This document shows positions 2-61,634 of a stretch of 64,000 nt of DNA, piece after piece. The notes under the pieces were generated by a model. That model had not been told where the DNA came from and made no database searches. It saw only the letters and a list, made by a program, of their open reading frames with translations. How positions within the stretch are numbered: the first letter of the stretch is position 1; every line of letters begins with the position of its first letter. Both the position numbers and the translations under genes were made by a program. Source of the stretch: Cellulomonas timonensis (lineage in GTDB: Bacteria > Actinomycetota > Actinomycetes > Actinomycetales > Cellulomonadaceae); the NCBI RefSeq assembly GCF_900046455.1, contig NZ_FCOT01000012.1, forward strand, positions 62,001 through 126,000, given 5' to 3'.

Positions 2-2632
2 GTCGCCGCGCTCGACCAGCACGGCGAGCTGGCACGCCACGCCGTGGAGGAGACCGGCCGCGGGGTGTTCGAGGACAAGGCCGTGAAGAACATCTTCGCG
101 TGCGAGCACGTCACGAACTCCATGCGCTCGCTCAAGACCGTCGGCGTGATCAGCCGCGACGACCTGAGCGGGATCACCGAGATCGCCGAGCCCGTGGGCG
201 TCATCTGCGCGATGACCCCGGTGACGAACCCGACGTCGACGGCGATCTTCAAGGCGCTCATCGCGCTGAAGACCCGCAACCCGATCATCTTCGCGTTCCA
301 CCCGAGCGCGCAGGCGTCCTCGGTGGCCGCCGCCAAGGTCGTGCGCGACGCGGCCGTGGCCGCTGGCGCCCCGGAGCACTGCGTCCAGTGGGTCGAGCAG
401 CCGTCGATGGAGGCCACCGGCCTGCTGATGAACCACCCGGGCGTCGCCCTCATCCTCGCCACCGGCGGGAACGCGATGGTCCGCGCCGCCTACTCGTGTG
501 GCAAGCCCGCCCTCGGCGTCGGCGCGGGAAACGTCCCCGCTTACATCGAGAAGTCCGCGAAGCTCAAGCGCGCGGTCAATGACGTGGTGCTGTCCAAGGC
601 CTTCGACAACGGCATGATCTGCGCCTCGGAGCAGGCCGTGATCCTGGACGACGAGATCTACGACGCCGCGATGGCCGAGTTCGCCACGCTGCACGCGTAC
701 CGGGTGAACGCCAAGGAGAAGGCGCTCCTCGAGAAGTTCATCTTCGGGGTGCAGGCGCAGGGCAAGAACTGCGGCGAGGCCAAGCTCAACGCCTCGGTCG
801 TGGGCCAGTCGCCCGCCTGGATCGCCGAGCACGCCGGCTTCACAGTCCCCGCCGAGACGTCGATCATCCTGGCCGAGGTCAGCGGTGTCGGCCCGCAGGA
901 GCCCCTCACCCGCGAGAAGCTCTGCCCCGTCCTCGCCGTGCTGCGCGCCGGCTCGACCGAGCAGGGCATCTCGTACGCCGAGCAGATGGTGGAGTTCGAC
1001 GGGCTGGGCCACAGCGCCGCGATCCACACGCAGGACGAGAAGCTGACCGAGGTCTACGGCAGCCGCGTCAAGGCGATCCGCGTCATTGCCAACGCGCCGT
1101 CCTCCCTGGGCGGGATCGGAGACATCTACAACGCCTTCATCCCGTCCCTGACGCTCGGCTGCGGCTCGTACGGCCACAACTCGGTCTCCAACAACGTCTC
1201 GGCGGTCAACCTGGTGAACATCAAGCGCATCGGCCGCCGGAACAACAACCTGCAGTGGCTCAAGGTCCCGGCCAAGACGTACTTCGAGCCGAACGCGATC
1301 CGCTACCTCGCGGACATGGCGGACGTCGAGCGCGTGACCATCGTGACCGACTCGACCATGACGACCCTCGGCTTCGTCGACCGCATTATCGAGGTCCTCA
1401 ACCGCCGCCCCAACAAGGTCGCGCTGCAGATCATCGACCAGGTCGAGCCCGAGCCGAGCGTGCGCACCGTCCAGGCGGGCGCCGCGCAGATGCGCCACTT
1501 CCGCCCCGACACGATCATCGCGCTGGGCGGCGGCTCGCCCATGGACGCCGCGAAGGTCATGTGGCTGCTGTACGAGCACCCGGAGATCGTCTTCTCCGAC
1601 CTCAAGCAGAAGTTCTTCGACGTCCGCAAGCGCGCGTTCAAGTTCCCGGTGCTGGGAGAGCTCGCCAAGCTCGTGTGCATCCCGACCACGTCCGGCACGG
1701 GCGCCGAGGTCACGCCGTTCGCCGTCATCTCGGACCCTGACGCGGGCAAGAAGTACCCGCTGGCCGACTACGCGCTCACGCCGACCGTCGCGATCATCGA
1801 CCCGGTGCTGACCGCGAAGATGCCCCGCTCGCTCGCCGCCGACTCCGGCTTCGACGCCCTGACGCACGCCACCGAGGCCTACGTCAGCGTCTACGCGAAC
1901 GACTTCACGGACGGCATGGCCCTGCAGGCCATCCGGCTCATCTTCGACAACCTGGCCGCCAGCGTGAACGGCGAGCCGGGCGCCCCGGACACGGCCGACG
2001 CCCGCGAGAAGATGCACAACGCGGGCACGATCGCCGGCATGGCGTTCGGCAACGCGTTCCTGGGCATCGTCCACGCCATGGCGCACGTGGTGGGCTCCAC
2101 GTTCCACCTGGTGCACGGCCGCACGAACGCGACCCTGCTGCCGCACGTGATCCGCTACAACGGCACCATCCCGACCAAGCTCACGAGCTGGCCGAAGTAC
2201 GAGCACTACGTCGCCCCGGAGCGGTTCCAGCAGATCGCCCAGACGCTGGGCCTGCCGGCCGAGACGCCGGAACAGGGCGTGGAGTCGTACGCGCTGGCCG
2301 TCGAGTCGCTGCGGGCGAAGGTCGGCATCCCGGCCTCGTTCCAGGCGCAGGGCGTGGACGAGCAGGAGTTCATCGGCCGCCTCGACGAGGTCGCGATGGG
2401 CGCCTACGAGGACCAGTGCGCCCCGGCGAACCCGCGGATGCCGATGCTCGCCGACATGAAGGACATCATGGCGGCGGCGTACTACGGCACCTCGCTGGAG
2501 GAGGTCCGCAGCCGACGCGAGCCGGTGGCGGCGCCCGCGAAGGCGTCGTCCGCGAAGGCAGCGGCAGCGGACGCGGCAGCCGAGGAGCCCGCGGCGGAGG
2601 CCGCAGCCGACAACGCGCCGGCCGCCTCCTGA
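2..2632 (+). CDS. adhE: bifunctional acetaldehyde-CoA/alcohol dehydrogenase, 5' end missing
   Basis: Converts acetyl-CoA to acetaldehyde to ethanol with NADH in fermentation. The frame is open from base 2, so the true start lies left of the window; 876 codons are visible against a family length near 870-900, so only a few tens of residues are missing. Residues about 1-430 are the aldehyde dehydrogenase half with the catalytic Cys in GMICASEQ (about residue 207). The rest is the iron-dependent alcohol dehydrogenase half, with GGGSPMDAAK for NAD binding and metal-ligand histidines in GIVHAMAHVVG and the following HGRTNA. The last 30 residues are an Ala/Glu-rich tail of no clear role. A strong hairpin follows directly. 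It could also use acetaldehyde released by the deoC aldolase, but that is inference. Confidence 0.95.
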   Translation, partial: VAALDQHGELARHAVEETGRGVFEDKAVKNIFACEHVTNSMRSLKTVGVISRDDLSGITEIAEPVGVICAMTPVTNPTSTAIFKALIALKTRNPIIFAFHPSAQASSVAAAKVVRDAAVAAGAPEHCVQWVEQPSMEATGLLMNHPGVALILATGGNAMVRAAYSCGKPALGVGAGNVPAYIEKSAKLKRAVNDVVLSKAFDNGMICASEQAVILDDEIYDAAMAEFATLHAYRVNAKEKALLEKFIFGVQAQGKNCGEAKLNASVVGQSPAWIAEHAGFTVPAETSIILAEVSGVGPQEPLTREKLCPVLAVLRAGSTEQGISYAEQMVEFDGLGHSAAIHTQDEKLTEVYGSRVKAIRVIANAPSSLGGIGDIYNAFIPSLTLGCGSYGHNSVSNNVSAVNLVNIKRIGRRNNNLQWLKVPAKTYFEPNAIRYLADMADVERVTIVTDSTMTTLGFVDRIIEVLNRRPNKVALQIIDQVEPEPSVRTVQAGAAQMRHFRPDTIIALGGGSPMDAAKVMWLLYEHPEIVFSDLKQKFFDVRKRAFKFPVLGELAKLVCIPTTSGTGAEVTPFAVISDPDAGKKYPLADYALTPTVAIIDPVLTAKMPRSLAADSGFDALTHATEAYVSVYANDFTDGMALQAIRLIFDNLAASVNGEPGAPDTADAREKMHNAGTIAGMAFGNAFLGIVHAMAHVVGSTFHLVHGRTNATLLPHVIRYNGTIPTKLTSWPKYEHYVAPERFQQIAQTLGLPAETPEQGVESYALAVESLRAKVGIPASFQAQGVDEQEFIGRLDEVAMGAYEDQCAPANPRMPMLADMKDIMAAAYYGTSLEEVRSRREPVAAPAKASSAKAAAADAAAEEPAAEAAADNAPAAS

Positions 2633-2666: not shown

Positions 2667-2708
2667 CACAGCGCCCCGCCCGCGTGTCGCACGCGGCGGG
2701 GCGCTGTG
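2667..2708 (+). terminator. strong hairpin after adhE
   Basis: CACAGCGCCCCGC pairs with GCGGGGCGCTGTG, and an inner CGCGT/ACGCG extends the stem with one bulged C; the loop is GTCGC. It sits 34 bases after the adhE stop. The artefact sequence begins one base later, as expected if reads failed at this hairpin. Confidence 0.7.
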
Positions 2709-2879
2709 CCTGTCTCCTATATCCATCTGACGCTGCCGACGTCCTCACGCGCGCGATTCATCCATGTAGTCGTCTCACGCACCAAATACAGACACCAGTA
2801 GTTGCCGTTCGACTTGTCATAATTCGTAATCAAAGCTATAGGAGACTCTCTCATTGTTTAGCATGACATTGTTATCCGC
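2709..2879. other. assembly artefact: Nextera-like adapter and low-quality sequence
   Basis: Bases 2710-2741 match the Illumina Nextera adapter, that is the reverse complement of the 19-bp transposon mosaic end (AGATGTGTATAAGAGACAG) followed by GACGCTGCCGACG, with three mismatches. What follows to about 2879 is AT-rich, has no coding frame, and is unlike everything around it. Native GC-rich sequence resumes in the middle of a lipoprotein signal peptide. No gene should be called here, and the adjacency of adhE to the downstream genes is not secured. Confidence 0.85.
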
Positions 2880-3371
2880 CCGCTCGCGGCCGCCGCCGCT
2901 GCTGTCCTCGCCCTCGCCCTCGCGGGCTGCGCCGAGGCCTCGACCACCATCGACGAGGCGCGAGACGGCGCCCAGACCGCCGTCGAGGAGGCGAAGGGCG
3001 CCGTCGACGAGGTGCGCGCCGCTGTCGACTCCGCGCGTGACGGCCTCGCCAAGGCGCGCACGGCCGCCGAGGACGCCCGCGCCGAGCTCGAGCAGCTCGA
3101 CGCGAGCGCCCGCGACTCCGCACAGGACGCGGTGGCGCGTGCGAGCTCGGCGATGGACGACGCGTCCGCCGCGCTCGACGAGGCGGCGACTGACGGCTCC
3201 GCGACGGCGAAGGAGCAGCTCGCCGCGGCCGAGACGGCACTGGAGGACGCCCGCGCTGACGTCGAGAAGGCCGCCGGGGCTGCCGACGGCACGGCGCGCG
3301 CGGCGCTGGACGAGTTGTCCGCACGGGTCGACGAGCTACGCCAGAAGGTCGAGCAGGCGAGCGCCCAGTAG
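2880..3371 (+). CDS. Ala/Glu-rich coiled-coil lipoprotein, start codon lost
   Basis: The frame from 2880 reads a hydrophobic signal segment ending in a lipobox (LALAGC, Cys at about residue 17 of the visible part), then about 145 residues of heptad-like Ala/Asp/Glu/Lys sequence (repeats such as ARAALDELSARVDELR) that should form a long coiled coil outside the membrane. The mature protein looks complete. The first few signal-peptide codons and the start codon are replaced by the artefact: the frame runs back only to a TAG at 2859 with no ATG, GTG or TTG in between. Function unknown; surface-anchored coiled-coil lipoproteins of this kind are common in actinobacteria. Confidence 0.7.
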   Translation, partial: PLAAAAAAVLALALAGCAEASTTIDEARDGAQTAVEEAKGAVDEVRAAVDSARDGLAKARTAAEDARAELEQLDASARDSAQDAVARASSAMDDASAALDEAATDGSATAKEQLAAAETALEDARADVEKAAGAADGTARAALDELSARVDELRQKVEQASAQ

Positions 3372-60540: not shown

Positions 60541-60651
60541 GCTGGGTCTTCTTTTACTCTCCTCTGCCCCCAAACACAGTCGCCCTTCTTTTGGCGCTTT
60601 TTCTCTCTACTAAATAATTATTTTTCCTTTTTGGTTGGTTGTATTGCTTAA
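60541..60651. other. AT-rich artefact splitting the VanW-family gene
   Basis: About 110 bases of T-rich, stop-laden sequence directly after a run of eight G (60529-60536), in a window otherwise very GC-rich. It looks like the low-quality tail of reads that failed at the G run and were built into the consensus. The true sequence here is unknown in content and length. Confidence 0.75.
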
Positions 60652-61634
60652 GTGGCGCCACCCGGGGCCGATGCAGGCGATCCCGCGACCGGGCTGGTCA
60701 CCGGAGGCGCGGCGGGCTCGGCGGCTGTCGGAGCGGGCGCGTGGGGTGCCATGACCTCGGGCTCGTGCGCCGGAGTCGACGGCCAGCCCTGCCATCCGCC
60801 GGCTGCAGCGATCCCCGGCTCGGCGGGGGTCGGGCGCGGCGGGACGACGGCGGTCCGCTGCGGGAGGTCGGCGACAGCAGCCGGGGGCACAGGCGCCGGC
60901 AGCACCTGGGTCACGGCGGCCGCAGCCACAGCGACGGGCGGCGCGCTCGGCGCGCTCGGCGTGGTCGGAGCCGGGGCAGGCGCGTCCGGCTCCGACGGGG
61001 CGTCTGCGGCGGCCTGCGTGGGTGCGACGGCCTCAGGGACTTCGGCGGTCTCCGAGGGCTGCTGTGCGGGCATCGACGCGGGCGCGGGCGCGGATGCGGA
61101 CTCTTGGACGGGCGCATCCCCCTCGGGCGCTGGAACGGCGTCCTCTGCCGGCGCGGGCTTATCAGCCACGGCGACCTCGGCATTCGCCAAGCGGTCGACC
61201 TCGCCGTCAGTGGGCGCCGTGTCGACGGACGGCGCCGCTGCCTCCTGCGCGGCGTCGACTGCGGGAGCAGTGGCCTCGTCGGGAGTAGCGGGGGCGGCCC
61301 CAGCGTCGGGGGCGACCTCGGCCTCGGGGACAGCCTCGGCTTCGGGCGCGGTGTCTGCAGCGAGCACTGCGTCGGGTGCGGTGGGCTCGTCCTCGACCGG
61401 CTGGGCCTCGTCGTCGGGCACCGGCTCGTCATCGAGCACCGCCGTGTCCTCACTCGCCGGGCTCACGTCATCGGTGGTGTGGTCGACCGCGGCGTCGTCG
61501 CTAGCGACGTCTTCGATCGCGGGGTCGTCGGCTATGCCCGCGGTGTCGGCTTCTTCGAGCTCGCGCTCTGTCGTGTCAGGAGTCTCCGAGGCGCCGTTCG
61601 GCGTGTGTTCGTCGACCTGTTCGTTCGTGCCCAT
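60652..61634 (-). CDS. Ala/Glu/Pro-rich N-terminal part of the VanW-family gene
   Basis: About 327 residues from ATG 61634 (MGTNEQVDEHTPNGA) with ribosome site GGGGGAG, read until the artefact. Composition is almost only Ala, Pro, Glu, Asp, Thr and Val, with no fold, so a disordered cytoplasmic head. The end (PVTSPVAGSPASAPGG) resembles the Pro/Ala stretch with which the VanW part resumes (TPPAPATKTADGGPGKG), and no stop is seen before the artefact, so both belong to one gene by inference. Alternative: a separate small disordered protein. Confidence 0.65.

Follow-up and report, generated by a model that had tools for sequence, protein, structure and literature searches.

A patch of 164 bases at positions 2710-2873 of the window (the whole stretch analysed, 64,000 nucleotides of contig NZ_FCOT01000012.1 of Cellulomonas timonensis) is a Nextera adapter leftover followed by machine noise and not bacterial DNA. 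With a probability of about 0.96, the patch is an adapter read-through artefact that escaped trimming and bridges a coverage gap, the neighbouring genes standing in the right order and ~130-150 native bases having been replaced. This reading is directly supported by the identity of the adapter, a recurring sample index, a floor in the number of mosaic-end mismatches, conserved gene order and the replacement of a native spacer. The artefact is of a known technical kind with an unusually clear mechanism, and the result serves as a practical check on assembly quality; it is no biological discovery.

Adapter sequence and native flanks in the window

The features of the region are given below. The left edge of the patch is uncertain by a few bases and the right edge by perhaps 10-20.

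2..2632, forward strand: adhE (bifunctional aldehyde-alcohol dehydrogenase), native left flank; ORF open at the left end of the window
2667..2708, forward strand: terminator-type hairpin at the patch edge, conserved in the relatives G005 and G006
2710..2742, reverse strand: Nextera Read 1 adapter, read through from the left
2710-2728, reverse strand: mosaic end within the Read 1 adapter, 3 mismatches
2729-2742, reverse strand: Read 1 tail, 1 mismatch
2743..2750, reverse strand: i5 index position, CCTCACGC; 6 of 8 bases shared with the recurring index TCTTACGC
2751..2779, no strand: expected place of P5; 13 of 29 bases match, other offsets reach 16
2780..2873, no strand: AT-rich noise past the adapter end; 39% GC, ~94 bases, ending where native sequence resumes
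2874..3371, forward strand: lipoprotein gene without start (IRPLAAAAAVLALALAGC...), its start codon and ribosome-binding site removed by the patch

The matching was carried out with the Nextera adapter sequences. Positions 2710-2742 (CTGTCTCcTATAtcCATCTGACGCTGCCGACGt, mismatches in lower case) were identical to the reverse complement of the Read 1 adapter at 29 of 33 bases, with an exact 18-base match to the Read 1 junction at 2724-2741. The original prediction had placed an adapter at 2710-2741 with all but three positions matching, and over that span the reverse-complemented mosaic end with its Read 1 tail indeed matched at 29 of 32 bases. The 19-base mosaic end at up to three mismatches occurred once in the window and in none of 100 dinucleotide shuffles. 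A 70-base construct of Read 1 adapter, the genome's own i5 index and P5 matched 48 of 70 bases at 2710, versus 35 of 70 at the runner-up place in the window (both strands) and 35 for the best reversed control. The chance of six or more of the eight bases at the index position matching is P = 0.004. P5 is not demonstrable in this copy, since 13 of 29 bases is no better than at other offsets.

The bases after the adapter had been described as AT-rich, which holds: the GC content was 47% in 2710-2873 and 39% in 2780-2873, against 73% across the whole window. The first 48 bases of the patch had 11 matches in the same genome, at other adapter sites, and the remainder had no match elsewhere in it at an E value of 0.001. 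No facing second adapter is demonstrable at the right edge, where TATAGGAGAC at 2836-2845 bears a weak resemblance to one. A phage or plasmid source of the AT-rich filler was also considered; 2742-2873 gave no match at an E value of 1 in a search from which the nearest records were perhaps excluded.

Both flanks are native. The left-hand gene, named adhE from its family, encodes a protein with 95-96% identity to those of G006 and G005, and the hairpin behind it is intact (the fold of 2656-2712 has -40.6 kcal/mol) with the patch starting directly after it, as the original prediction had stated. Native sequence resumes mid-gene, again as claimed, from ~2874 in the lipoprotein gene, which lacks a start codon; an in-frame stop lies at 2859-2861 and no in-frame ATG occurs from there to 2874. 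G005 (on one contig) and G006 carry, in order, adhE, the same hairpin, a GC-rich spacer and a homologous lipoprotein gene, with GAGGAG followed by ATGCGC at the place corresponding to the patch. The proposed check by alignment to close relatives thus returned a GC-rich native spacer and no adapter, and the mosaic end at up to two mismatches was found in none of the six other same-genus genomes. The patch has taken the place of ~130-150 native bases, and with them went the ribosome-binding site and start codon of the lipoprotein gene.

Adapter copies across the genome

The genome around the window comprises 4,057,828 bases in 13 contigs, and mosaic ends at up to three mismatches were found in it at 36 places, against none for the reversed-pattern control. 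The 18-base Read 1 junction was exact at 7 places, the window included, and within one mismatch at 16; the Read 2 junction was exact at 3 places and within one mismatch at 4. Tail searches at three mismatches gave 36 matches versus 23 in the reversed control for Read 1 and 29 versus 12 for Read 2, so that only close tails count and weak tails alone mean little. The set of 34 stretches used below holds all 36 mosaic-end places and all 20 tail places at up to one mismatch (16 + 4), leaving out most tail matches at 2-3 mismatches, where reversed controls are high.

These stretches contained 41 adapter copies, 31 closer to Read 1 and 10 closer to Read 2, a label that is nominal for copies with a poor tail. 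The index TCTTACGC followed the Read 1-type copies exactly in 4 of 31 cases and with one base off in 7, and AGGCAGAA followed the Read 2-type copies exactly in 3 of 10 and with one base off in one; we take the two recurring indices to be Nextera XT S517 and N703. P5 follows the index at L018, and P7 is visible at L021, L034, L035 and L041. One copy was present in 28 stretches and more than one in six. In five of these six the left copy ran rightward and the right copy leftward, the pattern expected of read-through from both sides; the sixth, L041, has two copies in the same direction.

A real insertion of Tn5/IS50 or MITE-like type, with ends resembling the mosaic end, was considered as a rival reading. 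The mosaic end is derived from Tn5 ends, and an inverted match to GTCTCCTATA (2712-2721) lies at 2836-2845. Against such an insertion, mosaic ends across the genome are followed by the synthetic Read 1 tail and a sample index, Read 2 tails and remnants of P5 and P7 are also present, the patch past its first 48 bases is not repeated in the genome, and the window has lost the spacer, the ribosome-binding site and the start codon that G005 and G006 possess, where an insertion would have left native sequence on both sides. The synthetic tails and the recurring index rule out a mobile element for practical purposes, and the probability left to one is negligible.

Several further observations were made at the adapter sites. 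At L013:1450-1604 the adapter has the native flank CCACTGGCATGCTCGTGGCGCGCGCTTGGACACCGCCGGC on either side, likely a false local duplication. Long G or C runs lie beside the adapter copies at L011, L012, L022, L032 and L037, perhaps as read-end noise. The window itself holds a possible second patch:

60541..60660, no strand: possible second patch following a G run, with a very degraded Read 2 adapter and AT-rich noise

This segment is below 50% GC and was not singled out by the ungapped adapter scans. Its gapped local alignment score to Read 2 + i7 + P7 was reached by 2 of 500 shuffles, in one of four tests. The matches to G005 and G006 end before the segment, and that to G005 resumes after 145 bases, versus 183 in the window.

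Gene order at adapter sites and the origin of the patch

The join between adhE and the following sequence had been called unproven. That doubt is weakened as far as the neighbours are concerned; it is the 164 bases between them that are wrong. Five of the six same-genus relatives have a lipoprotein-gene homologue downstream of adhE. It is clear in G005 (identity of 79% over 150 residues), G006 (87% over 143) and G004 (49%), and weak in G002 and G003. No homologue was found in the remaining genome, G001, where 387 bases separate adhE from a contig end. Since the order is conserved in a relative with both genes on a single contig and in others, adhE and the lipoprotein gene are probably true neighbours.

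Twelve of the 34 stretches, picked by eye for ordinary flanks, were searched with both flanks in G005 and G006. Both flanks were present in G006 for eight of the twelve sites, and all eight were colinear, at distances of 102-246 bases in the own genome versus 74-248 in G006 (computed by hand from match coordinates):

L042 (window site): 215 own, 200 G006
L010: 102 own, 93 G006
L018: 116 own, 103 G006
L024: 221 own, 114 G006
L031: 181 own, 190 G006
L035: 246 own, 248 G006
L038: 114 own, 74 G006
L040: 185 own, ~173 G006 (left flank a 44-base match; extrapolated)

The uncounted sites are L026 (right flank not found in G006), L030 (no match), L020 (a single match across both flanks) and L034, where the right flank was found and the left flank gave short weak matches on other contigs, taken as chance.

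These results bear on the possibility that adapter-bearing contigs were joined at random, adhE being no neighbour of the lipoprotein gene at all. Adapters do often lie at contig ends: in G050, another contaminated genome, 10 of the 18 copies listed (of 21) are within 280 bases of a contig start, and among the remaining 8 listed the one with a known contig end is ~200 bases from it. Random joining, on the other hand, does not predict an adhE-lipoprotein order shared with G005, G006 and G004, nor colinear flanks at every one of the eight sites. The conserved order rules out a random chimeric join as a working explanation, and we regard it as very improbable.

The artefact could also have arisen in a different way, by short-read polishing of a long-read draft, with end-to-end alignment of read tails across a coverage hole. 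Base-by-base replacement of this kind would keep the native distance, and at six of the eight sites the own and native distances differ by no more than 15 bases. L024 and L038, in contrast, are longer than G006 by 107 and 40 bases and have adapters facing from both sides, and at L010 the odd bases of the adapter differ, by eye, from the native bases. Polishing is an unlikely route. Inspection of L010 by eye showed no mixing of adapter with native bases. At the same site ~31 native bases rich in G runs were replaced, which would fit dropout at hard sequence.

The preferred reading, read-through and gap closure, would proceed as follows. Reads from library fragments shorter than the read length would run on through the Nextera adapter, i5 index and P5 and end in noise. 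Trimming would take out reads with 0 or 1 errors in the mosaic end, and reads with two or more would survive. Coverage would fail here just past the strong GC-rich terminator hairpin, which is a possible cause of the short-read dropout, and an assembler or gap closer, or else a polisher, would span the hole with surviving read tails. The order of the neighbours would be kept and native bases, including the start of the lipoprotein gene, overwritten.

Two-mismatch floor and contamination of other assemblies

The 41 copies comprised 23 with 2 mosaic-end mismatches, 13 with 3, 2 with 4 and 3 with 5, and none with 0 or 1. The same holds for the copies with a tail at up to one mismatch, none of 20 having fewer than 2. 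The chance of finding none of 41 below the floor is ~2e-6 at an error rate of 13% per base, 5e-4 at 16% and 0.03 at 20%, and the significance of the floor is weaker for this dependence on the assumed rate. Under a trimming threshold of 90% identity over 19 bases, copies with 18 of 19 matches are removed and those with 17 of 19 (0.895) stay, which results in a floor at two mismatches; we infer that such a trimming rule lies behind it. Illumina's own software applies a stringency of 0.9 by default, to which the default 10% error of cutadapt is equivalent here. Two other rules were tried and excluded: trimming by the first 12 bases at one mismatch, which would have removed the 19 of 41 copies with 0 or 1 mismatches there, and trimming by the 33/34-base adapter at three mismatches, since 13 of 41 copies have a total of 2 or 3. 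The mosaic-end mismatches equalled the neighbouring base in 88 of 108 cases versus 57.7 expected (z 6.2), and a composition-matched null gave an expectation of 76.2 (sd 3.5; maximum 88 in 5000), so that phasing as the source of the errors receives moderate support. No description of a two-mismatch floor was found in a partial literature search covering mainly titles and abstract openings.

Mosaic ends at up to two mismatches were found in 10 of 221 genomes of a family survey and 22 of 396 of a phylum draw (the own genome included in both), with reversed controls of 0 matches in the former and 6 matches in 5 genomes in the latter, so that single 2-mismatch matches (G273, G484, G328, G514) may be chance. 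Exact copies are listed for 14 of the 22 phylum-draw genomes, which look untrimmed. Within the two-mismatch limit, copies with exactly two mismatches alone were seen in G000 (23/23), G366 (10/10) and G562 (10 listed of 12) in the phylum draw, and in G050 (18 listed of 21) and G195 (4/4) in the family survey. The floor is not universal, since the otherwise similar G588 has one 1-mismatch copy among three (1, 2 and 2 mismatches); in G028 of the family, copies with 1 and with 2 mismatches occur together. The copies of G366 and G588 are internal to contigs of 3.4 and 3.9 Mb, and the tail was within one mismatch in 5 of 10 fetched copies and 3 of 3, respectively, with indices unlike those of the own genome. 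A-rich tails after P7 are present in some copies of G366 (L192-L201) and G588 (L202-L204). In G420, two exact mosaic ends stand back to back at L205:210-247, resembling a head-to-head transposon-end junction.

Scanning genome contigs for Read 1 tail + index + P5 returned at least 120 stretches, the counts being lower bounds. Among the matches listed (at least 123), the mosaic end was exact in 96, with 1 mismatch in 12, 2 in 8, 3 in 1, and worse or partial in 6; exact copies thus prevail among the contaminated assemblies listed, and the two-mismatch floor applies to a subset of them. Two of the 123 listed, L098 and L111, had over 600 bases past the adapter within the stretch, the latter with an internal P5 + index + Read 1 adapter at L111:7320-7354 (AP019702.1, Stella vacuolata ATCC 43931, titled complete genome).

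With the start of the lipoprotein gene and the native intergenic region gone, annotation and promoter studies would be wrong here and at ~30 similar places. Screens of contig ends or for exact matches would miss these copies, since they lie inside long contigs and have at least two mosaic-end mismatches. A similar signature is present in G366, G562, G050 and G195 of the phylum and in one genome titled complete. More generally, the floor could be the fingerprint of the common 90%/19-base trimming rule, marking remnants inside good, even chromosome-scale references, at coverage failures, unnoticed by exact-match screens and silently taking the place of promoters, gene starts and linkers; we hold the odds on this generalization to be even. 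If it is true, such remnants could be found and mapped across databases by searching for mosaic ends with 2-3 mismatches plus tail.

The NCBI VecScreen tool detects adapters among synthetic sequences, and contamination persists despite filters (PMC7218494). The present case resembles the known adapter contamination of public assemblies in that library adapter was likewise deposited as genome. In the known cases of the contig scan, the adapter is mostly near the end of a stretch, whereas in the own genome it lies inside long contigs, joining real neighbours, and every copy found has at least two mosaic-end mismatches. Compared with Illumina Nextera/Nextera XT read-through, the order and spacing of mosaic end, tail and 8-base index, with P5/P7 at some sites, are the same; the own copies differ from the design in carrying bases with errors, P5 being unrecognisable in the window copy. 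Stella vacuolata AP019702.1 is like the window in having a 2-mismatch mosaic end beside AT-rich sequence within a chromosome, and unlike it in having another library index and an intact P5 in the part searched.
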